From Chloroflexota bacterium (GTDB lineage: Bacteria; Chloroflexota; Limnocylindria; QHBO01): a stretch of 64,000 nt of DNA. This document shows, one piece after another, positions 8,276 through 53,011 of the stretch. The stretch is taken from positions 384,376 through 448,375 of the forward strand of contig JBBDXT010000004.1 in NCBI GenBank assembly GCA_040902225.1. The letters are read 5' to 3'. Position 1 is the first letter of the stretch; each line of letters opens with the position of its first letter. Made by a program: the position numbers and the translations under genes. The notes under the pieces are model-generated. The model saw nothing but the letters and a program-made list of their open reading frames with translations. It was not told the origin of the DNA and did not search any database.

Positions 8276-8330
8276 GGGCCGGGCGCCGCGCGGTCGCGGG
8301 CGGCCGTGGTCGAGGCGGTCGAATCTCCGA

Positions 8331-8360
8331 TGTGCTATGCTATGCGCATACATTCGCACA
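8331..8360. promoter_or_regulatory. Nested palindromic operator of the VapBC pair
   Basis: Perfect palindrome TATGCGCATA (8341-8350) lies inside a second concentric repeat, TGTGC (8331-8335) and GCACA (8356-8360), all centred on 8345.5. It lies 18 bases before the antitoxin ATG, where a ribbon-helix-helix antitoxin would autorepress. Confidence 0.6.
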
Positions 8361-8378
8361 CTTTCAGGAGATGGCCCG

Positions 8379-8621
8379 ATGGCGCTGGCACGCACGAACC
8401 TGACCCTCCCCAAGAATCTGATGGCAGAGGTCGACCAGTTGGCCGGCCCACGCGGACGAAGTCGATACGTGGCAGAAGCGGTCGCCCAACGCGTCAAGCG
8501 CGACAAGCTCGGCAGGGCGATCCGCGAGACGGCGGGGATCCTCGTCGGAACGCCGTACCAGATGACGCGCGATGAGGTGACCACCTGGGTCGACGGACTT
8601 CGTTCCGAAGAGACTGACTGA
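8379..8621 (+). CDS. Ribbon-helix-helix antitoxin (VapB/CopG type)
   Basis: 80 residues. Residues about 3-45 form the RHH fold: ARTNLTLPKNLMAEVDQLA, then GRSRYVAEAVAQ. The ATG at 8379 follows AGGAG by 8 bases. It ends two bases before a PIN-domain toxin gene, the standard VapBC order. The C-terminal half probably wraps the toxin. Confidence 0.82.
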   Translation: MALARTNLTLPKNLMAEVDQLAGPRGRSRYVAEAVAQRVKRDKLGRAIRETAGILVGTPYQMTRDEVTTWVDGLRSEETD

Positions 8622-8623
8622 GG

Positions 8624-9004
8624 ATGCGGTTCCTGCTCGATTCCACCCTGCTTATGGATCACGCCAACCGGGACGAGCCTGCCAACCAGCTGCTCGAGCG
8701 CCTGCATTCCGAGCCGCATGAGCTGTACACCTGCGACGTGATCACCTGCGAGACGTTGTCACAAGGCGATGCGAGCCACCTGCGGCAACTCCGCACACTG
8801 CTCGACGCTCTCGAATATGTCGCGACATCCCCGGATGCCGCGCGTTGGGCCGCCGACTCGCGGCTGACCAGGCATCGGGCGGGGGGCAAGCTCGGCCTTG
8901 GCGACTCACTGATCGCCAGCGTGGCCGCCGAGCTGGGCGCGACCGTGGTCACCCGCAACCGCCCCGACTTCGAGCGGCAGGGGATCAAGGTCCTGAGCTA
9001 CTGA
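8624..9004 (+). CDS. vapC: VapC-type PIN-domain ribonuclease toxin
   Basis: 126 residues, normal VapC length. Conserved acidic residues are in place: Asp6 (FLLDST), Glu near 43 (VITCETL), Asp near 94 (GLGDSLIAS), and Asp in TRNRPDFER near 117. PIN toxins cleave tRNA or rRNA until neutralised by the partner antitoxin, here the RHH protein immediately upstream. Confidence 0.85.
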   Translation: MRFLLDSTLLMDHANRDEPANQLLERLHSEPHELYTCDVITCETLSQGDASHLRQLRTLLDALEYVATSPDAARWAADSRLTRHRAGGKLGLGDSLIASVAAELGATVVTRNRPDFERQGIKVLSY

Positions 9005-9121
9005 CTCTCCCGCTTGACCTCCCGGGACCGATGTCGTCGCAAGCTGGACGCCGATTCCAGGAACTGAGGGTGACCGCGGGGCGGTTCGTGCAGGTATGGA
9101 CGGGCGGCTCACAATGGAGCC

Positions 9122-9931
9122 ATGCCCGCCAAGGAACGGAACGAGCAATTCTGGAGCGAATACCTCTCTCGCCCGAACTCGGGCATGGCGGCCGGGCGGC
9201 GCTTCTTCAGCCGAATCCCCACCAACCCCCGGTGCTACCTGTGCGCGGCGCCGTTTGCGGGTGCTGGGGGAGTGGCGTTCCGGCTCTTCGGCAAGCGACA
9301 GTCGTCGGGCAACCCGAACTATTGCAACTCGTGCGAGAAGATGCTGATCAAGTATCACGGTGGTGCCGAGGTCGAAGCCTCCATGCTGTTCGCCGATATC
9401 CGGGGTTCCACAGCCCTCGCCGAAAAGATGACGCCAACCGAGTTTCGGACGGTGCTCGACCGCTTCTACTCGACCGCATCGGGTCTGGTCTTCGCCCATG
9501 ACGGCATGGTGGACAAGTTCGTCGGTGACGAGCTGGTGGCCGCGTTTCCCTCCATGCTCAGCGCAGAGCGGCACACCGAGCGCGCCGTCGAGACAGCCCA
9601 GGAGTTGCTCCGCGCGACCGGCCACGCGGACCCGGCGGGTCCCTGGGTTCCGATCGGAGCCGGCGTGCATACCGGCCGCGTCTGGTTTGGCGCTGTGGGG
9701 GAGGGTGGTCACGTGGAGCTGACCGGCGTGGGCGATCCGGTGAACGTCACCGCTCGCCTCGCCTCCCTGGCGCAGGCGGGTGAGATCCTCGTTTCGGTGG
9801 AGGCGGCCGAGAAGGCCGGTCTGGATCCCTCGCTGCCGCGACAAACGCTCGAGCTGAAGGGTCGGGAGGAGCCCATTGAGGTGGTGAGCCTCCGATTAGC
9901 CCCAATTAGCGAGACAGTCGCGTCCGGGTGA
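9122..9931 (+). CDS. Zinc-knuckle protein with class III cyclase domain
   Basis: 269 residues, no membrane segment. Residues about 38-75 hold two CxxC knuckles (CYLC and CNSC) flanking a basic loop, likely one zinc site. The cyclase domain follows: SMLFADIRGST and DKFVGDELVAAFPS supply the metal aspartates, and GVGDPVNVTARLASL is the substrate segment. It is a soluble cAMP/cGMP-making enzyme, perhaps gated by redox or zinc (inference). A weak -10-like CACAAT lies six bases before the ATG. The TGA stop is also the first codon of leader B. Confidence 0.82.
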   Translation: MPAKERNEQFWSEYLSRPNSGMAAGRRFFSRIPTNPRCYLCAAPFAGAGGVAFRLFGKRQSSGNPNYCNSCEKMLIKYHGGAEVEASMLFADIRGSTALAEKMTPTEFRTVLDRFYSTASGLVFAHDGMVDKFVGDELVAAFPSMLSAERHTERAVETAQELLRATGHADPAGPWVPIGAGVHTGRVWFGAVGEGGHVELTGVGDPVNVTARLASLAQAGEILVSVEAAEKAGLDPSLPRQTLELKGREEPIEVVSLRLAPISETVASG

Positions 9932-41264: not shown

Positions 41265-42251
41265 TCAGTACGCGGCCAGCCCACGGGCGGCTTCGACGAT
41301 CTTGGCTGGATTGAGCATGAACCAGTCCTCGAGGCTGTGGTGGAACGGAACGCCAGGCACCTCCGGCCCCGCCAGGCGGGTGATCGGCCCGTCCAGGTGC
41401 TCGAAGGCCTGCTCGGCGATGATGGCCGCGACCTCCGCCCCAAAGCCGCCGAAGCGGTTCGCCTCGTGGACGACCAGCGCCTTTCCCGTCTTGGCCACCG
41501 ATGCGAGCACCGCGGCGGTGTCGAGCGGACGGAGGGTGCGCAGGTCGACCACCTCGGCCTCGACGCCGTCCTCGCGGGCGAGCGTCTCCGCCGCCTCGAG
41601 CGCGCAGAAGCGCATGTAGCCGTAGCAGAAGATCGAGAGGTGCTTGCCGGCTCGCGCCACGTCGGCCACGCCGATCGGGACCACGTTGTCGCCATCGGGG
41701 ACCTCCGCCTTGAAGAGGCGGTACGTCTTCTTGTGCTCGAAGAACATCACCGGGTCGGGGTCGCGGACCGAGGCCTTCAGCAGGCCCTTGGCATCGGCCG
41801 GGGTGCCGGGAGCCACCACCTTGAGGCCGACGGTGGAGGTGAAGTAGGCCTCGTTGCTCTGCGAGTGGTACAGCGCGCCGTGCACGCCGCCGCCGTACGG
41901 CATGCGGATCACCATCGGCAGACCAAAGGCGTTGTTGGACCGATAGCGCATGCGGCTGATCTCGGACACGATCTGGTTGAAGGCGGGGTACGAGAAATCG
42001 GCGAACTGCATCTCGGCGATCGGGCGCAGGCCGTAGATGGCGGCCCCTGCCGCGGCTCCGGCGATCATCGCCTCGGTGAGCGGCGTGTCGAGCACCCGCT
42101 TCCCGCCGTACTTGGCCCACAGCCCCTCGGTGGCGCCGAAGACGCCGCCCTTCTTGCCGACGTCCTCGCCCAGGACCATCACGTTCGGGTCGCGCTCCAG
42201 CTCCTCGTCCATGGCGGTCCGGATCGCCTCGAGGATGTTCAACTCGGCCAT
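41265..42251 (-). CDS. 2-oxoacid dehydrogenase E1 component, beta subunit
   Basis: 328 residues, the standard E1-beta length. VMVLGEDVGKKGGVFGAT, VLDTPLTEAMIAGAAAGAA, EMQFADFSYPAFNQI and the C-terminal VVHEANRFGGFGAEVAA are all family motifs. It forms the heterotetrameric thiamine diphosphate enzyme with the alpha subunit, whose stop overlaps its ATG by one base. Substrate is most likely branched-chain 2-oxoacids, judging from the partner. Confidence 0.92.
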   Translation of the reverse strand: MAELNILEAIRTAMDEELERDPNVMVLGEDVGKKGGVFGATEGLWAKYGGKRVLDTPLTEAMIAGAAAGAAIYGLRPIAEMQFADFSYPAFNQIVSEISRMRYRSNNAFGLPMVIRMPYGGGVHGALYHSQSNEAYFTSTVGLKVVAPGTPADAKGLLKASVRDPDPVMFFEHKKTYRLFKAEVPDGDNVVPIGVADVARAGKHLSIFCYGYMRFCALEAAETLAREDGVEAEVVDLRTLRPLDTAAVLASVAKTGKALVVHEANRFGGFGAEVAAIIAEQAFEHLDGPITRLAGPEVPGVPFHHSLEDWFMLNPAKIVEAARGLAAY

Positions 42252-43267
42252 CAGCCGCCCTCCTCGGCGTAGACGTGCAGCTCGGCCGTGGCCACGTCCG
42301 GCTCGGGACGCGCCTCGGCGCGCTTCGAGGCCTCGTTGATCTCCGCCTTCACCTCGGCTCGGTACTGCTCGTCGAGCTCGGCGATGAGCAGGCCGACGGC
42401 CGCCAGGCGGCTCGCAAACAGGGGGATCGGGTCGTGCTGCTTGAGGTCCTCGACCTCGGCGGGGTCGCGGTAGCGGCGCTGATCGTCGTCCGACGAGTGG
42501 CTGGTGAGGCGGTGCACAACCGCCTCGATCAGTGTCGGGCCCTCGCCGCGAATGGCGCGCTCGTGCGCCTCCTTGCCGGCGGCGTAGCAGGCCAGCGGAT
42601 CGGCGCCGTCAACCGTGACGCCGGGGAAGCCGTATCCCTCCGCGCGGGCCGCGACCGAGAGCCCGCCCACCTGCTGGGCGAGCGGCACGCTGATGGCGTA
42701 TCCGTTGTTCTCGCACACGAAGATGACCGGCAGCTTGTGCACGCCAGCAAAGTTCATCGCCTCGTGGACCTCGCCCTGGTTGCTGGTTCCCTCGCCGAAC
42801 GAGGTGATCGCCACCACGTCCTCGCCCTTCACCCAGGCGCCCATCGCGATCCCGACGGCGTGCAGCACCTGGGTGCCGACGGGGGAGCTGAGCGAGACGA
42901 TGTTGTAGCGCGCTGCACCGTAATGGCCGGGCATCTGGCGCCCGCCGGATGACACGTCGTCGCCCTTGGCCAGGTGCGCGGTGATGATGTCCTCGGGCGT
43001 CATCCCGAACGTGATCGCGGATGCGATCGAGCGGTAGTAGGGGGCCATCCAGTCCTGGTTCGGGCGCATCGGCCAGGTCATTCCGATCTGTGCCGCCTCG
43101 TGACCCTGCCCCGAGATGATGAAGGCGATCTTGCCGGCGCGCTGCATCAGCCACATTCGCTCGTCGACCGCGCGGGCCAGCAGCATCTGGCGGTACATGG
43201 CAAGCACATCGGCGTCCGTCAGGCCGAGCGCCTTGTGCCCCAGCTCCGCGACCTTGGTGTTGGCCAT
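42251..43267 (-). CDS. 2-oxoacid dehydrogenase E1 component, alpha subunit
   Basis: 338 residues from the ATG at 43267 (another ATG lies three codons upstream). Thiamine-diphosphate motif GEGTSNQGEVHEAMNFAGVH ends near FVCENNGYAIS. SGGRQMPGHYG and the phospho-loop-like HSSDDDQRRYR favour the branched-chain type over pyruvate dehydrogenase. It decarboxylates the 2-oxoacid and reductively acylates E2. Confidence 0.9.
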   Translation of the reverse strand: MANTKVAELGHKALGLTDADVLAMYRQMLLARAVDERMWLMQRAGKIAFIISGQGHEAAQIGMTWPMRPNQDWMAPYYRSIASAITFGMTPEDIITAHLAKGDDVSSGGRQMPGHYGAARYNIVSLSSPVGTQVLHAVGIAMGAWVKGEDVVAITSFGEGTSNQGEVHEAMNFAGVHKLPVIFVCENNGYAISVPLAQQVGGLSVAARAEGYGFPGVTVDGADPLACYAAGKEAHERAIRGEGPTLIEAVVHRLTSHSSDDDQRRYRDPAEVEDLKQHDPIPLFASRLAAVGLLIAELDEQYRAEVKAEINEASKRAEARPEPDVATAELHVYAEEGG

Positions 43268-43280
43268 CAATCCCATTGTC

Positions 43281-44699
43281 TCAGACGTGGATCGCGGCGC
43301 CATCCACGGCGAGCGCCGCCTCGACCAGCACCTCGGTCAGGGTCGGGTGCGCGTGGACCGACATCGCGATCTCCGCGGCCGTCCCCTCCAGCAGCAAGGC
43401 CAGGGTCGGCTCGGCCAAGAGGTCGCCCGCGTGCGCACCGATCAGGTGCGCGCCGAGCAGGAGGCCGCTCTCCGAATCGGCGACGAGCTTGGCGAAGCCG
43501 TCGACCTCGCCCACGATGGTGGCCTTGCCCAGCGCGCGGAAGGGGAAGGAGCCGACCTTCACGCTGTGGCCGGCATCGGTTGCCTGGGCTTCGGTCATCC
43601 CGACCGAGGCGATCTCCGGCCGGCAGAAGGTGACGCGCGGCATGAGCTCCATGCGCACCGGGTCCGGGTCGTGGCCGGCGATCTTCTCGACCGCGACCAC
43701 CGCCTCGTGGCTGGCCACGTGGGCCAGGGCGTAGCCCGGCACGATGTCGCCGATGGCATACAGATGCGGCACTCCCGTCTGCATGAAGCCGTCGACCTTC
43801 ACGAAGCCGCGCTCCATCTCGACCCCGGGAATCTCCTCGAGGCCGATCCCCTCAGTCACCGGGCGCCTGCCGACCGCCACCAGGATCACGTCTGTCTCCA
43901 TCTCGACCCGCGTCTTGCCGTCGCGAGCCTCGACCGCGAAGTGGACTCCGGACTTCGTACGCTCGATGCTCTTGGGGTCGATGTTCGACGAGGCGTAGAT
44001 CTTCACGTTTCGCTTCTTGAAGATCCGCGTCAACTCCTTGCTGACGTCCGCGTCCTCGAGTGGCACGATGCGGTCGAGGTACTCGATCAGGTGCACCTGC
44101 GCGCCAAGGTCCGCGTACAGGCTGGCCCACTCCACGCCGATGGCGCCGGCGCCCACGATGGCGACCCGGGCCGGCACCGTCTCGCGCTGCAGCGCCTCGT
44201 CCGAGGTGATGATCCGCTCGCCGTCGACGTCCAGCCCGGGCAGGCTGCGCGGCGCCGAGCCGGTGGCCAGGATGAGGTTCGTGGCGGTCGCATCCACCTC
44301 GCCGGATTCGCCGCCGCTGACATGCACGCTGGTCGGGCTGGTCAGCGTCCCGTTGCCGCGCAGGATGGTCACCTTGTTCTTCTTCATCAGGAACTCGACG
44401 CCATTGACGTGCTTGTCCACAACGGCGTCGCGCCGCTTGCCGAGGGCGGGGTAGTCGAGGGTGATGCCGTCGCCGCCGGCCAGGCCGAACTCCGCGCCCT
44501 GCTCCGTCACCCGATGCAGCAGGTCGGCGGTCTCGAGCATCGCCTTGGTCGGGATGCAGCCACGGTTCAGGCAGGTGCCGCCCATCTTGTCGCGCTCCAC
44601 CAGGCCGACCGTGAGGCCCAGCTGCGCGGCGCGGATGGCGCCCACGTAGCTCATCCCCCCGCCCAGGATCAGGAGGTCGAACTGCTGCGCGTCACTCAT
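43281..44699 (-). CDS. lpdA: Dihydrolipoamide dehydrogenase (E3)
   Basis: 472 residues. FAD-binding LLILGGGMSYVGAIRAAQLG, the redox disulfide GGTCLNRGCIPTK, NAD-binding VAIVGAGAIGVEWASLYADL, and the C-terminal dimer His-Glu motif HAHPTLTEVLVEAAL. It reoxidises the E2 lipoyl group with NAD+. The gene overlaps the upstream thioesterase by four bases (ATGA). Confidence 0.94.
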   Translation of the reverse strand: MSDAQQFDLLILGGGMSYVGAIRAAQLGLTVGLVERDKMGGTCLNRGCIPTKAMLETADLLHRVTEQGAEFGLAGGDGITLDYPALGKRRDAVVDKHVNGVEFLMKKNKVTILRGNGTLTSPTSVHVSGGESGEVDATATNLILATGSAPRSLPGLDVDGERIITSDEALQRETVPARVAIVGAGAIGVEWASLYADLGAQVHLIEYLDRIVPLEDADVSKELTRIFKKRNVKIYASSNIDPKSIERTKSGVHFAVEARDGKTRVEMETDVILVAVGRRPVTEGIGLEEIPGVEMERGFVKVDGFMQTGVPHLYAIGDIVPGYALAHVASHEAVVAVEKIAGHDPDPVRMELMPRVTFCRPEIASVGMTEAQATDAGHSVKVGSFPFRALGKATIVGEVDGFAKLVADSESGLLLGAHLIGAHAGDLLAEPTLALLLEGTAAEIAMSVHAHPTLTEVLVEAALAVDGAAIHV

Positions 44700-45136
44700 G
44701 CGGCGGTCACCGGTCGATCCAGGGGCCGTCCCTCGTGGGCCACCATGGTCGTGCGCCAGCTGTCCGAGACAGGCATCGGCTTCTCGATGTCATAGTCGAA
44801 CGCGACCAGCACCGCTTCGGATCGGGCCAGTTCGCGGGCCTCCTGGTTGATCAGCAGGTGCGACATGCCGATGCTGGTGCGTCCGATCCAGTCGACCCGC
44901 GACCCGACCTCGACTGCGTCGCTGAACAGCACCTGCGACAGGTAGTCGATCTTCAGCATGGCCAGGATGAAGGGCATGCTGACCGGATCGACGCCGGTCC
45001 CCAGCACATCGCGCAGGTAGAGGACGCGCCCCTGCTCCACGTACGTGGCGACGACGGCATTGTTGACGTGGCCAAAGGGGTCGAGATCGCCGAGGCGCAC
45101 CTCGAGGCGCGTGCGGTGACGGAACTCATCGATCAC
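44696..45136 (-). CDS. 4HBT-family acyl-CoA thioesterase
   Basis: 146 residues with the hot-dog signature VRLGDLDPFGHVNNAVVATY (catalytic Asp in the FGHVNN region), a single-domain YbgC-like form. First gene of the dehydrogenase operon. GTG start; TAGAAT nine bases upstream. It may release acids from the acyl-CoA made by the complex or guard against CoA trapping. Confidence 0.83.
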   Translation of the reverse strand: MIDEFRHRTRLEVRLGDLDPFGHVNNAVVATYVEQGRVLYLRDVLGTGVDPVSMPFILAMLKIDYLSQVLFSDAVEVGSRVDWIGRTSIGMSHLLINQEARELARSEAVLVAFDYDIEKPMPVSDSWRTTMVAHEGRPLDRPVTAA

Positions 45137-45160
45137 GGGAACCCGATTCTACACGGGCCG

Positions 45161-46327
45161 TCAGATCGCTTCGGCGACCCGGTCGATCAGGGCGGCGAGG
45201 AGGGTGGTGCGCGGGACGACGCTCGACAGGTCGAGCCATTCGTCGGGCGAATGGTCGTCGCCGCCGACCGGGCCGAGCCCGTCAAGCGTGGGCAGTCCCG
45301 CGGCGCTGGTCGTGTTCGCGTCGCTCGCCCCACCGGTCAGCGCGTCGTGCAGCTCGAAGCCAAGCTCCGCGGCGATGGCGATGGTCAGTTCTGCCAAACG
45401 CGCATTGCCCGGAGTTCGTTCCATGGGCGGATGGAAGGCCGCCTGGCGGAACGTGACCGAGATGCCCTCGATGGTGGGGCGCGTGACCATGCTCTCCATC
45501 TCGGCCGCGGCCATCTCGAACTCCGAGGCGCTCGCCGCCCGAAGGTCGACCTCCATGCGGCAGTTCGCCGCGACCACGTTGGGACGGGTGCCGCCCTCGA
45601 TCACCCCGGCGTTGATCGTCGCGCTGGGCCAGCGCCCGTTCAGGGCGTGGAGGGCGAGCACCTTGTGCGCCGCCTCGAGGATGGCGCTGCGACCCTTCTC
45701 CGGCTCGACTCCGGCGTGCGCCGCGCGTCCCTTGATGGTGACCTCGTAATCGGCGATCCCCTTGCGCGCGCTGACGATGTCCCCGTTGGCACGCGCGCAT
45801 TCCAGCACCAGGGCCGCGTCGTGTTCCGCGATGAGCCCCTGGATGTGCGCGGTGCTGAAGGGCGAGCCGATCTCCTCGTCGGGGTTGGCGACGAAGGTCA
45901 CGGATGGACGACGGTCCAGACTGCGCAGCGCGGCCAGCGCGTGCAGGCCCGCCAGCAGCCCGCCCTTCATGTCGCTGACACCCGGACCCGTGGCCCGATC
46001 GCCATCGACCTTGAACGGTCGCTCCGCCGCGGTGCCGGGCTCGAAGACGGTGTCCATGTGACCGATGAGCAGCAGGCGTGGGCCCGATCCATCGAGGCGC
46101 CCGATGACGAGGTCGCCTAGCTGCCGCTCTCCGCCGGTTGGGAGGTGCCGGATCCGCTCGACCGCCGCGCCAATCTCCTGCAAGGACCCGCTGACGGCGG
46201 TCGCGACGCGGTTGACCCCGGCCGGCGTGTACGACCCGCAGTCGATGCCGACCAGGCTGGCAAGGTCGCCCACGTAGCGCGCGTAGCGCGCGGCGACGGC
46301 AGCCTGGAGGCCATCGGGGAGGGTCAC
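45161..46327 (-). CDS. M20-family metallopeptidase (carboxypeptidase G2-like)
   Basis: 388 residues. Zinc ligands are in LLIGHMDTVF, GPGVSDMKGGLLAG (bridging Asp) and ANPDEEIGS (catalytic Glu pair), with the late His in GGDDHSPDEW; the lid/dimer domain is in the middle. Relatives remove C-terminal Glu or cleave dipeptides. It is expressed from the same symmetrical promoter as the Mur-ligase paralogue and close to cphAB. A role on cyanophycin-derived beta-Asp-Arg dipeptides is possible but unproven. GTG start. Confidence 0.85.
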   Translation of the reverse strand: MTLPDGLQAAVAARYARYVGDLASLVGIDCGSYTPAGVNRVATAVSGSLQEIGAAVERIRHLPTGGERQLGDLVIGRLDGSGPRLLLIGHMDTVFEPGTAAERPFKVDGDRATGPGVSDMKGGLLAGLHALAALRSLDRRPSVTFVANPDEEIGSPFSTAHIQGLIAEHDAALVLECARANGDIVSARKGIADYEVTIKGRAAHAGVEPEKGRSAILEAAHKVLALHALNGRWPSATINAGVIEGGTRPNVVAANCRMEVDLRAASASEFEMAAAEMESMVTRPTIEGISVTFRQAAFHPPMERTPGNARLAELTIAIAAELGFELHDALTGGASDANTTSAAGLPTLDGLGPVGGDDHSPDEWLDLSSVVPRTTLLAALIDRVAEAI

Positions 46328-46335
46328 GGCGCGTG

Positions 46336-46343
46336 AGTATACT
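46336..46343. promoter_or_regulatory. Symmetrical bidirectional -10 element
   Basis: The perfect 8-bp palindrome AGTATACT contains TATACT on both strands: plus 46338-46343, seven bases before the ATG at 46351, and minus 46341-46336, eight bases before the GTG at 46327. One AT-rich core can thus start two leaderless transcripts in opposite directions. Confidence 0.6.
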
Positions 46344-46350
46344 GCCGGCC

Positions 46351-47979
46351 ATGCCGAACGACGCGCGGCAGCAGGCCGAGGTCGAGCTGCTCGAGCTGCG
46401 CGTGCTGGACGGCCCCAATCGGTTCTTCAACCGCCCCGCCATCAAGCTCGAATTCGGGTCCGAGACGCCATTTGCGGCCTCAGAGGTGGCTGCCGCCGCC
46501 GCGCTGGCACTGCGCCGTCTCCACGTCGCGCTGGACCTGCCCGTGCCTCGCGTCACCGTTCGCCATTCGCACGACCATCGCCGCGCGGCCATCGCCTTCC
46601 CGTGGCGACGGCGCGCGCGGTCGCAGGCGATCGCGGCAGCTGCCGGACGAATCGCCGCGGGCGTCAGCACGGCACGCCAGGAGCTGCGCGCCCTGCGGGC
46701 GGTGGCGCCCGGGCCCATGCCCAACCTGCCGCGGCCCCGTATCCCGGTGGTGGCGATCACCGGCACCAACGGCAAGAGCACCACCACCCGCCTGATCGCG
46801 CACATCGCAGCGCACGCGGGCCTGAAGGTGGGGATGACCAACTCCGACGGGATCTACATCGGCTCCGAGTTGGTCGAGGCGGGGGATTGGACCGGCTTCG
46901 GCGGTGCCGGCCGCGTCCTCGCCGAGCCGAAGCTGGAGCTGGCCGTGCTGGAGACGGCGCGGGGCGGAATCCTGCTGCGGGGGATCGGCTATGCCGCCAA
47001 CGACGTGGCGGTGGTGACCAACGTTTCGGCCGATCACCTGGGCCTGCAGGGGATCGACACGCTCGACGAGCTCGCCGAGGTGAAGGGCGCCGTGACCCGC
47101 ATCACCAAGCGCTCGGGCTGGGTGGTGCTGAATGCCGATGATCCGCGAGCCTGGCGCATGCGCCGCGAGACGAAGGGCAGCTGGTACCCGTTCACGCTCG
47201 ACCCGGACAACCCCCGGATCGAGCTGGCCCTCGACCGTGGCGGCCGAGCCGCCGTCGTGCAGCGCGGCTGGCTGATCCTGCTGGGAGCGGGCCGCCGTCC
47301 GCAGCGCGTGGCCCGCGTGGCCGACCTGCCCGTCACGTTCGCCGGCCTGGCCGAGTACAACGTGGCCAACGCCCTGGCCGCCGCGGCCGCCGCCGACTCG
47401 CTGGGAATCCCGGCCAGCACGATCGCCGAGGGCCTGCGCAGCTTCGCTCTCGATAGCGAGCTGAATCCGGGCCGGCTCAACCTGTATGAGCGCCGTGGTC
47501 TGCTGGTGGTGGTCGACTTCGCCCATAACGAGGCCGGCCTTGCCGGGCTGCTGGAGGTGTGCCGCAAGCTGACCCAGGCCTCGGCCCGCGCCTCGCGCCA
47601 CGGGCGGGGGAAGGTGCGACTGGGGATCGGCACGGCGGGCGACCGTACCGAGGAGATCCTCCATGGCCTGGGCCGACTCGCGGGCGCGCAGGCCGACGAC
47701 GTGGTGATCGCCGAGAAGCGGCATTACCTGCGCGGGCGCGATCCCGACGAGATGAACGAGATCATGCGATCGGGGGTGTACGAGGCAGGGTACATGGGGC
47801 CGGTCGAGGCCTATGCGACCGAGCTGGAGGCGCTCCAGGCGCTCCTCGCGCGCGCACATCGCGGCGACGTGGTGGCCGTCATGACCCACGTGGAGCGCGC
47901 GGAGTTCTTCACCTGGCTGGAGACGGAGGGGTTTCGGCCGGTCGCTTTCGACCGGCTGCGGAAGCTGGTCGGCGCCTAG
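46351..47979 (+). CDS. Mur-ligase-domain protein, cyanophycin synthetase paralogue without ATP-grasp
   Basis: 542 residues. The N-terminal 125 residues are not recognised. The Mur-ligase part follows: IPVVAITGTNGKSTTTRLIA (P-loop, about 138), LETARGGILLRGIGY, NVSADHLGLQGIDTLDELAE, VLNADD, GLAEYNVANALAAAAAADS, LNLYERRGLLVVVDFAHNEA. These match the C-terminal half of cyanophycin synthetase, but the ATP-grasp half is absent. It is convergent with cphA, and the two stops overlap on CTAG. It may make or ligate a dipeptide or modify cyanophycin. Confidence 0.85.
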   Translation: MPNDARQQAEVELLELRVLDGPNRFFNRPAIKLEFGSETPFAASEVAAAAALALRRLHVALDLPVPRVTVRHSHDHRRAAIAFPWRRRARSQAIAAAAGRIAAGVSTARQELRALRAVAPGPMPNLPRPRIPVVAITGTNGKSTTTRLIAHIAAHAGLKVGMTNSDGIYIGSELVEAGDWTGFGGAGRVLAEPKLELAVLETARGGILLRGIGYAANDVAVVTNVSADHLGLQGIDTLDELAEVKGAVTRITKRSGWVVLNADDPRAWRMRRETKGSWYPFTLDPDNPRIELALDRGGRAAVVQRGWLILLGAGRRPQRVARVADLPVTFAGLAEYNVANALAAAAAADSLGIPASTIAEGLRSFALDSELNPGRLNLYERRGLLVVVDFAHNEAGLAGLLEVCRKLTQASARASRHGRGKVRLGIGTAGDRTEEILHGLGRLAGAQADDVVIAEKRHYLRGRDPDEMNEIMRSGVYEAGYMGPVEAYATELEALQALLARAHRGDVVAVMTHVERAEFFTWLETEGFRPVAFDRLRKLVGA

Positions 47980-50852
47980 CCGTCGACCTCGATGGCGACC
48001 ATCTCGTCGTCCAGCACGTCGATCGGCTCGTCGATTGCCACGGACATTTCCGACGATGCCCCGCCGTGCTGCCGGCGCTGGAGCTCCTTCCACACGGCAT
48101 TGGCGTGGTCGACGCAGACCACGACCACGTCGCCCTCGTGCCCCATGTCCAGCGCGTGGCGGGTCGCGTCCATCTCGTCGAGCACCGTCTCGACGTTGGC
48201 GCAGCGTGCGCCCCCCGCCATCGCTTCGCGCACGCCCCGTTCGATGAGGGCCGCGGTGTCGCCGACCTTGCGCCCGCGGTTGTTCGCGTCCTCGCGCACG
48301 ATGATCGTGTCGAAGTACGCGGCGGCGATCCGGCCCAGCTCGGCGATGTCGTCGTCGCGTCGGTCGCCGGCGGTGGCCAGCACCCCGATCCGCTGGCCGG
48401 TGACCAGCGCCCGCCGGCCGCTGGCTGACGGCTCGGCCAGCCGGTCCACGAACTCGCCCAGCGCCGACACCGCCGGCGCGTTGTGCGCGTAGTCGACGAT
48501 CACCCGGTATCCGTCGAGCTCGAACATGTTCAGGCGCCCCGGGGCCATGAAGTAGCTGGTTGTGAAGGTACGCAGGCCCTGGCGAACGTCATGCAGATGC
48601 GCGCCGGCCGCCCACGTCGCAGCCGCAGCCGCCAGGGCGTTCTGCACGTTCATGCGTGCCCGCCCCTCGAAGGTCGCCGGCAGCAGGTGGGTCCAGACCA
48701 GCGGCAGGTTCTTGCGCCCCTGGCGCAGGACGATCATGTCGCCGTTGCGTCCCGGCTCGAGCGTCACCGCCCGGCGGCCACGGCTTGCCTGGCGGCGGAT
48801 CGATTCGTTGTTCGGATCCATGCTGAAGTAGATGACCGATCCGGAGCAGTGGCGACCCATCGCCGCCACGAGCGGATCATCGGCGTTGAGGACGGCGGTC
48901 CCGTCGCGTGGTACCGCCTCTACCAGCACCTGCTTGACGGCAGCCAGCTGGCGCATCGAGGTGATCCCGCCCAGCCCCAGGTGGTCGCCGGTTACGTTGA
49001 GGACCACCGCCACGTCGTTGCGGTCGTAGCCAAGGCCCTCGCGCAGGATGCCGCCACGGGCGACCTCGAAGACAGCCATCTCCACGTTGGGGTTCTGAAG
49101 GACGGTGGACGCGGACTTGGGGCCGCTCATGTCGCCGCGGCGGATGAGGCGCCCATCGACCACGATGCCGTCGGTGCTGGTCATGCCGACCTTGCGCCCC
49201 ATCCCCTTGAGGATGTGCGAGATCATGCGGGCGGTGGTCGTCTTGCCGTTGCTGCCGGTGACCGCCACGATCGGGATGCGGGCGGCCGATCCGGGCGGGA
49301 AGAGCATGTCGATGACCGGCTTGGCGACGTACTGCGCCTCGCCCTCGGTCGGGTGGGTGTGCATCCGGAAGCCTGGCGCGGCGTTGACCTCCACGATGCC
49401 CCCGCCGGTCTCGCGCACCGGGACGCTGATATCGGGGCAGATGAAGTCGATGCCGGCGATGTCGAGCCCCACCACCCGGGCGGCAAGCTCGGCGATCTCC
49501 GCGTTCTCGGGGTGGATCTCATCGGTGCGGTCGATGCTGATGCCGCCGGTGCTCATGTTGCCGGTCCGCTTCAGGAAGACGCGCGTCTCCGCCGGCGGCG
49601 CGTCGGTCAGCGCGAATCCCTGCTCCTTGGCATACCCGATCGACTCCTCGTCCACGTTGATGCGGGTCAGCACCTTCTCGTGGCCGATGCCGCGTCGCGG
49701 ATCGGCATTGGTGGCCTCGATCAGCTCGGCGAGGGTATGCGTCCCGTCGCCATCGACATGGGCCGGAATCCGCTCCGCCACCGCGCGCAGCGTGCCGCCG
49801 ATCACCAGGCAGCGGTAGTCGTTGCCGGTCAGGAAGCTCTCCACCACGACGCCGCCGTTGCGGGACTCCCTGCGGGCGATCGCGTAGCCGTCGCGGACGG
49901 CTGGCGCATCGGCGAGGTTGAGGATCACGCCACGGCCGTGATTGCCATCGAGCGGCTTGACCGCCACGGGGTAGCCGACACGCGCCGCGGCGGCCACCGC
50001 CTCGTCCGCGTTGCGGACCACATCGGCGCGGGGGACCGGCACGCCGGTGCCGGCCAGGAGCTTGTTGGTGAGCTTCTTGTCCGAGGCGATGTCCACGCCC
50101 AGCGAGCTGGTGCTCGAGGTCATGGTGGCCCGGATCCGCTTCTGGTAGACCCCGTGCCCGAGCTGTACCAGGGACTGGTCGTTGAGCCGGATCCACGGGA
50201 TGTCGCGCAGGCTGGCCTCGTCGAGCAGCGCCTGGGTGGAGGGGCCGAAGGCCGCCCGCTCGGCGAGCAGGACCAGCTGCTCGAACTCGGTTGCCAGGTT
50301 GAAGTCGGGCGACGGCTCGACCAGGTGGTTGACCAGGCGCACCGCCAGCCGTCCGGCAGCCAGGCCGACGCTCTCTTCGGCATAGGAGTAGACCACGTGA
50401 TAGCGCCCCGGCTCGCCGGTGCCGCGCGTCTTGCCACGCCCGACCTCGGTGCCGGCGTCGCGCTGCAGCTGGAGGGCGATGTGCTCGGCGACGTGCCCGA
50501 CCCAGGTGCCGTCGCGCAGGCGCTTGGTGAAGCCACCGGCCCGGCCGGTTGAGCAGGAGTGCAGGCCGACCCCCGGGAGCATCGAGAGCAGCGCGTCGGT
50601 GAAGCCGGGGATCTTGTTGGTGGGGAAGGCCTCCAGCACCCCCAGGTCGACGACCAGCTTGATGGTGGGGTCGTAGCTCCAGTAGTTCGGTCCGCGGTAG
50701 ACGCGCGTCTCGATGATGCGCAGCGTCGCGCGCGGCTTGTCGGCCGCGGCCTTCTTCGGAGCGGCCCCGCGACGCGGCGTTGGGGAAGGGCGAGCCTTGA
50801 CTCGGTCCTTGGAGCGCTGCTTCGCGCGAGCCTTGGCGCGCTCTGTTGTCAC
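47976..50852 (-). CDS. cphA: Cyanophycin synthetase
   Basis: 958 residues, somewhat longer than the usual 870-900 because of a Lys/Arg-rich extension (1-40). Order: N-domain (RVYRGPNYWSYDPTIKL, HVAEHIALQLQRDAG), ATP-grasp (YPVAVKPLDGNHGRGVILN, GIVEVNAAPGFRMH), Mur-ligase P-loop VAVTGSNGKTTTARMIS at about 533, then LNVTGDHLGLGGI and VDYAHN. It adds Asp and Arg to the storage polymer cyanophycin using ATP. GTG start within the cphB stop (GTGA), so translation is coupled. Confidence 0.94.
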   Translation of the reverse strand: MTTERAKARAKQRSKDRVKARPSPTPRRGAAPKKAAADKPRATLRIIETRVYRGPNYWSYDPTIKLVVDLGVLEAFPTNKIPGFTDALLSMLPGVGLHSCSTGRAGGFTKRLRDGTWVGHVAEHIALQLQRDAGTEVGRGKTRGTGEPGRYHVVYSYAEESVGLAAGRLAVRLVNHLVEPSPDFNLATEFEQLVLLAERAAFGPSTQALLDEASLRDIPWIRLNDQSLVQLGHGVYQKRIRATMTSSTSSLGVDIASDKKLTNKLLAGTGVPVPRADVVRNADEAVAAAARVGYPVAVKPLDGNHGRGVILNLADAPAVRDGYAIARRESRNGGVVVESFLTGNDYRCLVIGGTLRAVAERIPAHVDGDGTHTLAELIEATNADPRRGIGHEKVLTRINVDEESIGYAKEQGFALTDAPPAETRVFLKRTGNMSTGGISIDRTDEIHPENAEIAELAARVVGLDIAGIDFICPDISVPVRETGGGIVEVNAAPGFRMHTHPTEGEAQYVAKPVIDMLFPPGSAARIPIVAVTGSNGKTTTARMISHILKGMGRKVGMTSTDGIVVDGRLIRRGDMSGPKSASTVLQNPNVEMAVFEVARGGILREGLGYDRNDVAVVLNVTGDHLGLGGITSMRQLAAVKQVLVEAVPRDGTAVLNADDPLVAAMGRHCSGSVIYFSMDPNNESIRRQASRGRRAVTLEPGRNGDMIVLRQGRKNLPLVWTHLLPATFEGRARMNVQNALAAAAATWAAGAHLHDVRQGLRTFTTSYFMAPGRLNMFELDGYRVIVDYAHNAPAVSALGEFVDRLAEPSASGRRALVTGQRIGVLATAGDRRDDDIAELGRIAAAYFDTIIVREDANNRGRKVGDTAALIERGVREAMAGGARCANVETVLDEMDATRHALDMGHEGDVVVVCVDHANAVWKELQRRQHGGASSEMSVAIDEPIDVLDDEMVAIEVDG

Positions 50853-51838
50853 TCGCTCGCCTCTTCGTCGCGGTGGGCTCGCATCGCGCGTCGCCGAGCA
50901 CGCTCCGGGGCGGTGTCGTCGGCCCCCTCGGCCGCCACGCGCCGAATCAGGCGGCGCGCCTTGTCGCCGGCTGCGAGCAGCTGCGTCTGCTGTCGCTCGC
51001 TCAGTTCGACCGAACGGAGCGGGGTGAGGAGGCGCCGGCGGCGCAGGTCGAAGCGGTAGCCGCTCGGCAGGGAGTGCAGGATGACGCCGCTGACCATGAT
51101 CGGCCGGTGGCGTTTGACCTCGTAGGCATCGGTCTCGATCCTGGCGGGGTCGAGGATGGTGACCGACCCCTTGCCGAGCACCTCCATCACGCCCGACGGG
51201 CTGACCAGCGCGGCGGTGTCCTCGTCGACTCCCATCCCGATCAGGGCCGGCGACTGCGCGATCAGGGCCAGCAGGCGCCCGATCCGATTCCGCTGCTCGA
51301 AATGCTGGTCGATGATCACGCCGGGCAGGAGCCCCAGGCCAGCGCTCATCTGGGTCATGCGCTGCTTGGGCGAGGTCCCACTGGTGCCGAAGGCGACCAT
51401 GTGACTGCTGATGGCCGAGGCGCCGGCGCTGGTGCCGGCGATGATCGCGCCCTGACGGTGGCGCTCGATGATGGCCCTCCCCAGCGCGGTGCCGCCGATC
51501 ACGCTGGAGAGCCGGAGCTGGTTGCCGCCGGTCATGAAGATGCCGGTCGCGTCGGCCAGCTGTCCGGCGAGCGCCTGGTCATTTGCCTCTTCCCGGGTGA
51601 TGGGTCGCAGGCCGATGACGTCCGGGACCCCGAGCTGCGCGAAGAGGGCCCGGTACAGGTCGGTCGCCTCGTCGCCCAGGGACGAGGCGGTCGAGACGAT
51701 CGCCACCCGCCCCTCCGCCCCGCCGGCCAGCGAGGCGAAGCGCGACAGGATCTGTCGCTGTCGAAGCTTCTCCTCAGCGCCGCCGATGATCAGCAGGTGA
51801 CCTGGGCGGGCGGCGCCCGGGCGTGAGGGATGGGCCAT
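50849..51838 (-). CDS. cphB: Cyanophycinase
   Basis: 329 residues from the ATG at 51838 (another ATG lies five codons upstream). S51 peptidase family: HLLIIGGAEEKLR, IFMTGGNQLRLSSVIGGT, the nucleophile elbow IIAGTSAGASAISSHM, and GVIIDQHFEQRNRIGRL. It cuts cyanophycin to beta-Asp-Arg dipeptides. The basic C-terminal tail overlaps cphA by four bases. Having breakdown and synthesis in one operon suggests turnover control at enzyme level. Confidence 0.92.
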   Translation of the reverse strand: MAHPSRPGAARPGHLLIIGGAEEKLRQRQILSRFASLAGGAEGRVAIVSTASSLGDEATDLYRALFAQLGVPDVIGLRPITREEANDQALAGQLADATGIFMTGGNQLRLSSVIGGTALGRAIIERHRQGAIIAGTSAGASAISSHMVAFGTSGTSPKQRMTQMSAGLGLLPGVIIDQHFEQRNRIGRLLALIAQSPALIGMGVDEDTAALVSPSGVMEVLGKGSVTILDPARIETDAYEVKRHRPIMVSGVILHSLPSGYRFDLRRRRLLTPLRSVELSERQQTQLLAAGDKARRLIRRVAAEGADDTAPERARRRAMRAHRDEEASE

Positions 51839-51861
51839 GTTGCCGGGCAGCATAGCAACGC

Positions 51862-51867
51862 TAGACT
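51862..51867 (+). promoter_or_regulatory. -10 element of a leaderless promoter (DnaJ-domain gene)
   Basis: TAGACT, seven bases before the ATG at 51875. Confidence 0.45.
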
Positions 51868-51874
51868 CGATCGG

Positions 51875-53011
51875 ATGTCCAGCACTGATCGGGCCGATGA
51901 CGGTCGCGTCGATCTCCGCGATTACTACGAGGTGCTCGGCGCCGAGCCATCGGCCACGGTGGCGGAGCTGCGCGCGGCCTTTCGCGAGGCGGTGCTGCGC
52001 CATCATCCGGATCGCAGTGCCCAGGATTCGCTGGCCACGCGGCGCACCTCGGTCCTGAACCGCGCCTGGAGCGAACTGCGCGACCCCGTCCGCCGCCTGC
52101 ACTACGACCATGCCCTGGAGCGGGGTGGCGCGGCGACGCTCGCCTGGCCGCTCGGCTCGGGCGAGGCGCCGTCGCCGGTTCGGCGTCAGCGCCGCGCGGC
52201 GCGCCCGGTCCGCACGCCGTGGCACATGCCCGAGTTCCGCAGCGTGCATGGCTTCCGCGTCCCGACCCAGGTCTTCATGGCCGGCCCCGCGGCGCAGCGA
52301 GCATGGATCGTGGCCAACCACATCGACGGCCAGGACTGGCGCGAGCACAGGGAGCGCTATTGGCTCCGCTTCGCTGCCAACTACTACCGGGACCGCGGGC
52401 GAACGGACGACTGGCTCGGCGCCATGGAGCGGCTGGTCGAGCTGGACGGCACCTTCGAGACGCTGGTGCACGCCGACCTGCGGCCGGCCTACGTCGCTGC
52501 GCAGGAATTCCTTCGCGGAACCGGCTTCCTCCGGACGGTGGCGCTGCAATACGCCACCGGCAGCGCGCAGCGGAAATGGGTCGATCGCGAGCTGCGCGCA
52601 CTGCTGGCCGAGTACCGCGACGCTCGCGTGCGCAAGGGACGGCCCGAGGACCGCGCGGAGGCGGCCGAGCTGCTCCTCAATTACCTCGAGGCGCTCGAGA
52701 TGCCGCCCGCCTTCGCGGACGTGCGGGCCGCGATCATGGCCCACCTGCGCGCCGGCCACGCGGGCCGCGCCGCCGAACTCCTGGAACGAGCAGTGGCTGC
52801 GCCGATCACGGAGCCCGCGCGCCGGTTCAGCATGGTCCAGCTCCTGACGGAGGGCGGTCAGCTGGATCGCGCCTCAGCCATGCTGGCCGAGATCGCCCGC
52901 GGGGATCACCCTGAGGCCCTCGACCGGCGCCGCCTGCGCGGAGATCCGGCCCGTCGTATCTCGGCTGCTCGCGTCCGCCTCGAACGCGCTCGGCAGCGCG
53001 CCGCGGGCTGA
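51875..53011 (+). CDS. J-domain protein
   Basis: 378 residues. A J-domain spans about 13-80: DYYEVLGAEPSATVAELRAA, with the essential HPD in LRHHPDRSA, and LNRAWSELRDPVRRLHYDHA. The remainder is Arg-rich and alpha-helical, with no G/F or zinc region, so this is a type III (DnaJ-like) partner of Hsp70 with an unknown client. Divergent from cphB. Confidence 0.82.
   Translation: MSSTDRADDGRVDLRDYYEVLGAEPSATVAELRAAFREAVLRHHPDRSAQDSLATRRTSVLNRAWSELRDPVRRLHYDHALERGGAATLAWPLGSGEAPSPVRRQRRAARPVRTPWHMPEFRSVHGFRVPTQVFMAGPAAQRAWIVANHIDGQDWREHRERYWLRFAANYYRDRGRTDDWLGAMERLVELDGTFETLVHADLRPAYVAAQEFLRGTGFLRTVALQYATGSAQRKWVDRELRALLAEYRDARVRKGRPEDRAEAAELLLNYLEALEMPPAFADVRAAIMAHLRAGHAGRAAELLERAVAAPITEPARRFSMVQLLTEGGQLDRASAMLAEIARGDHPEALDRRRLRGDPARRISAARVRLERARQRAAG

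Follow-up and report, generated by a model that had tools for sequence, protein, structure and literature searches.

A cyanophycin locus of Chloroflexota with a synthetase paralogue lacking the ATP-grasp domain and a linked M20 peptidase

The cyanophycin locus

Cyanophycin is a bacterial nitrogen store. We have analyzed a cyanophycin locus lying within a stretch of 64,000 nucleotides (nt) from a Chloroflexota bacterium (assembly GCA_040902225.1, contig JBBDXT010000004.1, positions 384,376 to 448,375), which we call the window and whose numbering is used throughout. The locus contains a paralogue of cyanophycin synthetase that lacks the ATP-grasp domain, which we term the half-synthetase. Its gene (46351..47979, plus strand) encodes 542 amino acids (aa) from an ATG at 46351, or 548 aa from an alternative GTG at 46333. 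It is convergent with cphA (47976..50852, minus strand), with the ends of the two genes overlapping by 4 nt (47976-47979), and divergent from the gene of an M20 zinc metallopeptidase (45161..46327, minus strand, 388 aa). The 5′ end of cphA is in turn overlapped over 4 nt by cphB (50849..51838, minus strand), encoding a cyanophycinase of family S51. A preliminary description of this DNA had given the same order and orientation; all four genes lie where it placed them, with the ATG of cphB found at 51838, the end coordinate given there.

Both cyanophycin enzymes score well above their family cut-offs, CphA with 1153 bits against 850 for TIGR02068, and CphB with 247.6 bits against 126.6 for TIGR02069. 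CphA is a cyanophycin synthetase 1 of 958 aa, with N, G and M domains in Pfam and three ATP-grasp matches. In its sequence, aligned to SuCphA1 (7lg5), all three active-site motifs are intact, and the N domain carries C-x19-HVAEH, the primer-independent type, as read by eye in the translation and from the same alignment. The half-synthetase is therefore not substituting for a lost step, and rescue of a broken CphA is ruled out.

Domain structure of the half-synthetase

The 542-aa protein is matched in Pfam by Mur_ligase_M and Mur_ligase_C only, and by no ATP-grasp family, as a paralogue without ATP-grasp had been described. Among NCBIfam models it matches cyanophycin synthetase best, with 390 bits where the cut-off is 850, over positions 476-848 of the 862 in the model. 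A MurE cell-wall ligase is ruled out by score (TIGR01085, 100 bits against a cut-off of 257.3). Apart from CphA and the half-synthetase, five places in the genome match PF02875.

The N-terminal domain (46351..46725, residues 1 to ~125) had been called unknown. The Pfam N-domain model PF18921 is unreported for the half-synthetase at E = 0.001, and BLASTP of residues 1-127 against the CphA of the same genome gives a short match to the CphA N end, with E = 0.001. We built an AlphaFold model on an 18-row alignment, with a mean predicted local distance difference test score of 88.5 and a predicted template modeling score of 0.87. It superimposes on TeCphA1 (7wae) over 494 of the 542 residues with a root-mean-square deviation (rmsd) of 2.4 Å and Z = 54.1, spanning residues 11-527 of the model and 1-877 of the chain, while its best structural match outside CphA is MurC, with Z = 33.7. 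Of the 494 aligned positions, no more than 402 can come from residues beyond 125, which leaves about 90 or more within the N domain; this domain is therefore of the CphA type. Thus, as judged from the model, the protein is a CphA minus its ATP-grasp domain, and begins with a diverged form of the CphA N domain. Identity to CphA1 is 31-36%. The Cx19HxxEH site, which makes primers in CphA1 according to a passage of PMC9262961, is absent from the half-synthetase.

The M domain and the putative amino-acid pocket

The remainder of the protein (46726..47979) forms a Mur-type ligase core with its lid, in which the P-loop GTNGKSTT, T163, E201 and the D228-H229 pair are intact. In an alignment of 18 half-synthetases from two families, K142, T163, E201, D228 and H229 are invariant in every row, and the P-loop residue S143 is either S or T. 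D228-H229 align with D585-H586 of SuCphA1. In the M domain of CphA1, ATP and Mg are held by residues of the P-loop, a Thr and a Glu, and the domain loses its activity when the D-H pair is changed (passages of PMC9427784 and PMC9262961). Because the residues for ATP, Mg and catalysis are invariant, the half-synthetase is taken to be an active ligase, a prediction from sequence.

We compared 61 CphA rows with 53 half-synthetase rows in the region expected to receive the incoming amino acid. Because close relatives and fragments from contig ends are among the rows, percentages are of rows and not of independent events; among the seven rows filed as short, that of L138 at 5527 is a full CphA and another is L134, and the motif counts leave out unreadable or misread rows, including L017, L062 and L022. 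An Asp that is conserved in 87% of the CphA rows is mostly K, T or L in the half-synthetases. A Tyr has been gained before the L-R-G-R stretch in 96% of the half-synthetase rows, at a position that is a gap in 60 of the 61 CphA rows. The residue following A-H-N is Glu in 96% of half-synthetases and Pro in 45 of the 61 CphA rows. The stretch reads like KEDxxxRGR or RQDxxxRGR in CphA and like KExxxYLRGR in the half-synthetase. We take the altered stretch to match the DNPR motif of MurE, which holds the incoming amino acid, and by this analogy we infer that it is the amino-acid pocket, near residues 394 and 456-463 of the protein. Since the pocket is altered in a similar way in nearly all the half-synthetases compared, the amino acid that is joined is probably other than arginine. 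The earlier suggestion that the protein adds other residues stands to this extent, as a possibility consistent with an altered pocket.

Conservation of the locus in the class

Within the order we sampled 22 genomes from nine genera of a single family, f1. Half-synthetases were found in 19, with none in G013 and G016; the match in a further genome (G003) covers 172 residues at the end of a contig and is CphA-like. The M20 peptidase is present in 20 of the 22, including G013, and is the divergent neighbor of the half-synthetase in 18 of 19 genomes of f1, the contig ending at this point in G011.

Across 177 genomes of the class, which also holds families f3, f4 and f5, matches at E ≤ 1e-60 occur in 72 and are confined to f1 and f2. 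Both the half-synthetase and CphA are found in 66 genomes and neither in 105. The half-synthetase is alone in two (G096 and G106, 62% and 65% complete), and a CphA-like match is alone in four (G047, G099, G103 and G115). For this co-occurrence Fisher's test gives p = 5e-41, uncorrected for kinship; the search, like that of the Terrabacter family below, used half-synthetase models and may miss weakly matching CphA. Half-synthetases of the two families are 42-91% identical to that of the window. In 22 inspected of the 49 f2 genomes with a half-synthetase, the M20 gene is the divergent neighbor in 21, and in the other (G123) it is also divergent, about 1.5 kb away. cphB was called beside cphA in five of the six long class loci that reach past cphA (L194, L195, L196, L197 and L199, not L200). 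One f2 genome with 7% contamination, G121, has a half-synthetase locus of f1 type on another contig (C21:45143-46780, L065), which is probably foreign.

The locus thus recurs with cphA in two families, the conservation that the preliminary description had proposed to check. This rules out chance neighbors; what had been observed at the locus is confirmed, and is stronger than first put.

An old and widespread family

In the phylum, 48 of 400 genomes gave matches, and half-synthetases are also found in families f19, f46 and f76; in f46 the genes run half-synthetase, cphB, cphA, all on the same strand. We also scanned named genomes, taking the best 80 loci among the matches listed. Nocardioides, a Micrococcales metagenome-assembled genome (MAG) and Terrabacter aerolatus have full-length half-synthetases convergent with cphA-cphB. 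Short cphA copies without an ATP-grasp match in Pfam lie directly downstream of cphA in a Lysobacterales MAG, Lysobacter and Plesiocystis, where cphB is in front, and in an Acidobacteria MAG. Matches were obtained in 92 of the 149 genomes of the Terrabacter family, each of the 92 having at least two, and in 91 of these the best match (E ≤ 1.9e-142) is of half-synthetase strength. Among the 20 best loci of this family a convergent CphA is found within the 1.5-kb flank in 18, and none there in two. Most of the half-synthetase frames listed from the family are at least 730 aa long, and one from Terrabacter (L109:2372-4630) has a TPR domain fused at its C terminus (TPR_5, 82 bits). Beyond cphB in Actinomycetota lie SerB-like genes with an ACT domain, named by eye (L109:8879-10123 and L107:14357-15571).

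A midpoint-rooted tree of 77 M domains, 76 of them different, contains a branch with support of 100/99 that separates 22 half-synthetases and five short copies from 49 CphA rows and the CphA′ of Duganella; the long branches of L134 and L131 make their own placement unsure. The half-synthetases on one side of this branch come from five phyla, which rules out a recent local duplication of cphA. CphA of G399, from the same phylum, groups with Thermomicrobiales CphA at 100/100. As judged from these sequences, the half-synthetases are an old and widespread family.

Two further proteins were seen in this survey. The CphA′ of the beta-proteobacterium Duganella (L134, minus-strand match 8325-9458) is a 701-aa protein encoded beside cphA, of unsure place in the tree because of its long branch, in which only a remnant of the ATP-grasp region is discernible by eye. 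In family f25 of the phylum there is a 538-aa protein of the N+M type encoded away from CphA (L201:9081-10694 and L202:9448-11061), with a gene for 417 or 423 aa immediately after it; the 417-aa product has no Pfam match. Both f25 proteins have an N-like start and fall within the half-synthetase group of the tree, and the gene pair might be a separate system.

Short or second cphA copies beside cphA have been published, with Fuser and Steinbuchel (2007) cited for them. Neighboring cphA copies are in print from outside the cyanobacteria, including those of Tetrasphaera MAGs, in which transcription of the shorter copy is lower than that of the longer; serB lies in the cphA cluster of Tetrasphaera (PMC10687191). 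In Sideroxydans, 'CphA1' and 'CphA2' are described as adjacent in a passage of PMC5178258. From the sequences of the Terrabacter family, the short Tetrasphaera copy would belong to the half-synthetase family. In the open-licence literature we found no description of a family of cyanophycin ligases without ATP-grasp, of its N+M make-up or of its role, and recognized no M20 cyanophycin dipeptidase.

The M20 peptidase

The M20 protein is matched in Pfam by Peptidase_M20 (104 bits) and M20_dimer (80 bits). Its nearest solved structure is carboxypeptidase G2 (CPG2; E = 1e-42), with which its model gives Z = 45 at 30% identity. PahZ2 follows, with Z = 37.8, rmsd 2.6, 365 aligned residues and 21% identity, and then others, among them DapE and carnosinase (Z ~34) and beta-alanyl-lysine dipeptidase (Z ~31). 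Carnosinase and beta-alanyl-lysine dipeptidase act on beta-amino-acyl dipeptides. H90, D92, D119, E151, E152, E176 and H359 are invariant in 18 of 18 orthologues, and by analogy with CPG2 we take these residues to form the metal site. The protein falls below the NCBI cut-off for glutamate carboxypeptidase (NF004788, 294.6 against 349 bits). The product of cyanophycinase, beta-Asp-Arg, has the layout that M20 exopeptidases use: its arginine is N-acylated, and the leaving side bears a free carboxylate.

The usual isoaspartyl dipeptidase had been noted as missing at the locus, and this extends to the whole genome (99.37% complete), in which no match exceeds a cut-off. There is no match to PF01112 for IaaA, and for IadA only two weak matches to TIGR01975, the better at 21.1 bits against a cut-off of 331.25. 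For the AstE/AspA type there is no match to PF04952 or PF24827 at E ≤ 1, PF00246 (M14) not having been searched. CphZ is an M14 enzyme of AstE/AspA type (passages of PMC10206079), so that the M20 peptidase is not the known CphZ. Because the genome holds no match above cut-off for these enzymes, we propose the M20 protein as the beta-Asp-Arg (beta-aspartyl) dipeptidase; on its sequence it is a credible replacement.

An orthologue of 48% identity lies divergent beside cphB-cphA in Actinomadura montaniterrae, where no half-synthetase is found in the 15-kb locus (L160). The earlier proposal that the M20 enzyme splits the cyanophycinase dipeptide is thus plausible, fitting both the absence of matches to known dipeptidases and this recurrence beside cphB-cphA. 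In the eight genomes behind the named loci an M20 match at E ≤ 1e-40 is found in three, and is strong in Actinomadura only; the weaker matches (E ~1e-42) lie elsewhere in two of the genomes. M20 as a member of every half-synthetase locus is ruled out, as it is seen only in the class (f1 and f2) and in one Actinomadura.

In the window the M20 gene is at the head of a same-strand run (41265-46327). Following it on the minus strand are a 4HBT thioesterase (44696-45136, from Pfam), a dihydrolipoamide-dehydrogenase-like gene (43281-44699) and two dehydrogenase E1-like genes (42251-43303 and 41265-42251), the last three named by eye.

A putative shared promoter

Between the divergent starts of the M20 and half-synthetase genes is the palindrome AGTATACT (46336..46343), which places TATACT on both strands. 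The window contains three matches to TATACT, two of them here, against 0.97 expected, and at least three occur in 10 of 100 shuffles. TATACT is found in 17 of 18 f1 loci, with CATACT in L021, and precedes the half-synthetase ATG by 7 nt in 16 of them and by 5 nt in L018. Among 14 f2 loci, TATCCT lies before the half-synthetase in nine and TAGACT on the M20 strand in nine. We infer that AGTATACT is a shared, bidirectional −10 element giving leaderless messages on both sides.

Similar hexamers precede cphB by 10 nt and the likely start of a DnaJ-domain gene, which is divergent from cphB (likely ATG 51875), by 7 nt. Hexamers resembling −10 elements thus lie 7-10 nt before the starts of M20, the half-synthetase, cphB and the DnaJ-domain gene (46327-46351; 51838-51877), and so leaderless starts may be common here.

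Discussion

The explanation that we favor, tentatively and as something just short of an even call, is that the locus encodes a pathway with the M20 peptidase as last-step dipeptidase and the half-synthetase as a tailoring or capping ligase. CphA would make cyanophycin and CphB would cut it to beta-Asp-Arg, which the M20 peptidase would probably split, standing in for IaaA, IadA or CphZ. The groove between the N and M domains of the half-synthetase would hold a cyanophycin chain or short oligomer by its C-terminal Asp; ATP would be used to phosphorylate the beta-carboxylate of this Asp, and an amino acid would be joined to the activated group. Less certainly, this would probably be a residue other than arginine, by which the polymer would be tailored or capped. 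A broader claim, which we regard as possible but on balance doubtful, is that half-synthetases form one ancient family, found in five phyla and hardly ever separated from CphA in the two groups searched in depth. Its members would attach a second amino acid, other than arginine, to cyanophycin, and M20 would be a new cyanophycin dipeptidase in one class.

Several observations weigh against these proposals. The closest M20 relatives, CPG2 and PahZ2, are not dipeptidases, and in f1 the M20 gene also heads a run with thioesterase and dehydrogenase genes. M20 is absent among the called genes of seven loci of f19, f46 and f76 (L187-L193) and of three Actinomycetota loci (L107-L109), and in the Actinomadura family a match at E ≤ 1e-100 occurs in one of 150 genomes, G522 itself, so that the link of M20 with cyanophycin is narrow. 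In G013 (84% complete) there is a fragment of M20 but no match to the half-synthetase. The search for CphZ used just PF04952 and PF24827, and that these detect it is an assumption. The pocket role of the altered stretch is presumed, being carried over from MurE by analogy. Finally, f16 genomes have a CphA match without a half-synthetase, which is thus dispensable for cyanophycin as such.

A rather unlikely alternative is that M20 is a general CPG2-like carboxypeptidase or poly-aspartate hydrolase that is tied to the dehydrogenase run and not to cyanophycin. The match to CPG2 (E = 1e-42) followed by PahZ2 in fold, and the thioesterase and dehydrogenase-like genes that come after M20 on the same strand in f1, would be explained in this way. 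However, the link of M20 with the half-synthetase holds in both f1 and f2, whereas among the f1, f2 and wider loci compared the thioesterase of the window is matched in f1-type loci only. Moreover, a member of the same M20 subfamily lies beside cphB-cphA in Actinomadura, and the protein scores below the glutamate carboxypeptidase cut-off.

The half-synthetase might instead use arginine, either finishing aspartates left bare by CphA, or making beta-Asp-Arg or a primer from free Asp and Arg. Its N+M arrangement and catalytic residues equal the arginine-adding half of CphA1, which has been proposed to join free Asp to Arg very slowly (passages of PMC9262961). Yet the CphA of this genome, having Cx19HVAEH, should need no outside primers, and the putative amine pocket is unlike that of CphA, so we consider this unlikely. 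Quite improbable is a partner role without catalysis, in which the half-synthetase would bind CphA or the granule to set chain length or assembly. Its nearly constant presence alongside CphA in two groups, the retained N domain and the TPR fusion in Terrabacter would suit such a role, but the residues for ATP, Mg and catalysis are invariant over two families and would be needless in a scaffold. Least probable by far is the recycling of beta-Asp-Arg that the preliminary description had suggested, into polymer in the manner of CphA2. The half-synthetase does share its locus with the enzymes releasing this dipeptide, but the G domain that CphA2 uses for this reaction is missing here, and the M-domain parts that CphA2 lacks are kept instead. 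The earlier interpretation is thus partly supported, being right on the kind of protein, plausible on M20 and unlikely on dipeptide recycling.

Cyanophycin chemistry, in the published passages concerned, rests on CphA1 and CphA2. The half-synthetase is a conserved third form, accompanying CphA in 66 of the 70 class genomes with a CphA-like match and found in roughly 91 of the 92 genomes with matches in one family of Actinobacteria, that of Terrabacter. If it is active, then large bacterial groups differ in the polymer or in how it is handled, and if the amino acid is not arginine the cyanophycin of these lineages would be differently decorated or capped. As an enzyme with a single ligase site it is a possible tool for altering the side chains of cyanophycin. 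With the M20 candidate, a gap of a known kind would be filled in a new way, as the last-step dipeptidase is unrecognized in some CphA-bearing lineages of Firmicutes and Bacteroidota (passages of PMC10206079).

Comparison with known systems

CphZ, IaaA and IadA carry out the reaction proposed for the M20 peptidase and belong to other families, while CPG2 and PahZ2 share its fold and the residues taken as its metal site and have other known substrates. The published second copies of cphA resemble the half-synthetase in being cphA-like genes next to cphA; the sections and passages concerned describe neither the domain make-up of these copies nor their role or the limits of a family. MurE and the pseudomurein ligases have the Mur core and lid in common with the half-synthetase, whose N domain is of the CphA and not the MurE type. 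With CphA1 (TeCphA1, 7wae; SuCphA1, 7lg5) it shares the arrangement of N domain and Mur-type M domain together with the ATP-binding and catalytic residues; it differs in having no G domain and no Cx19HxxEH, and in its altered putative amino-acid pocket with an extra Tyr. The closest parallel in architecture is CphA2, a cyanobacterial polymerase of recovered beta-Asp-Arg dipeptides (passages of PMC9262961), which is likewise a CphA paralogue minus one of the two ligase halves. The two are mirror images, as CphA2 has lost the P-loop and lid of its M domain (passages of PMC9427784), whereas the half-synthetase has lost the G domain and kept the M domain intact.

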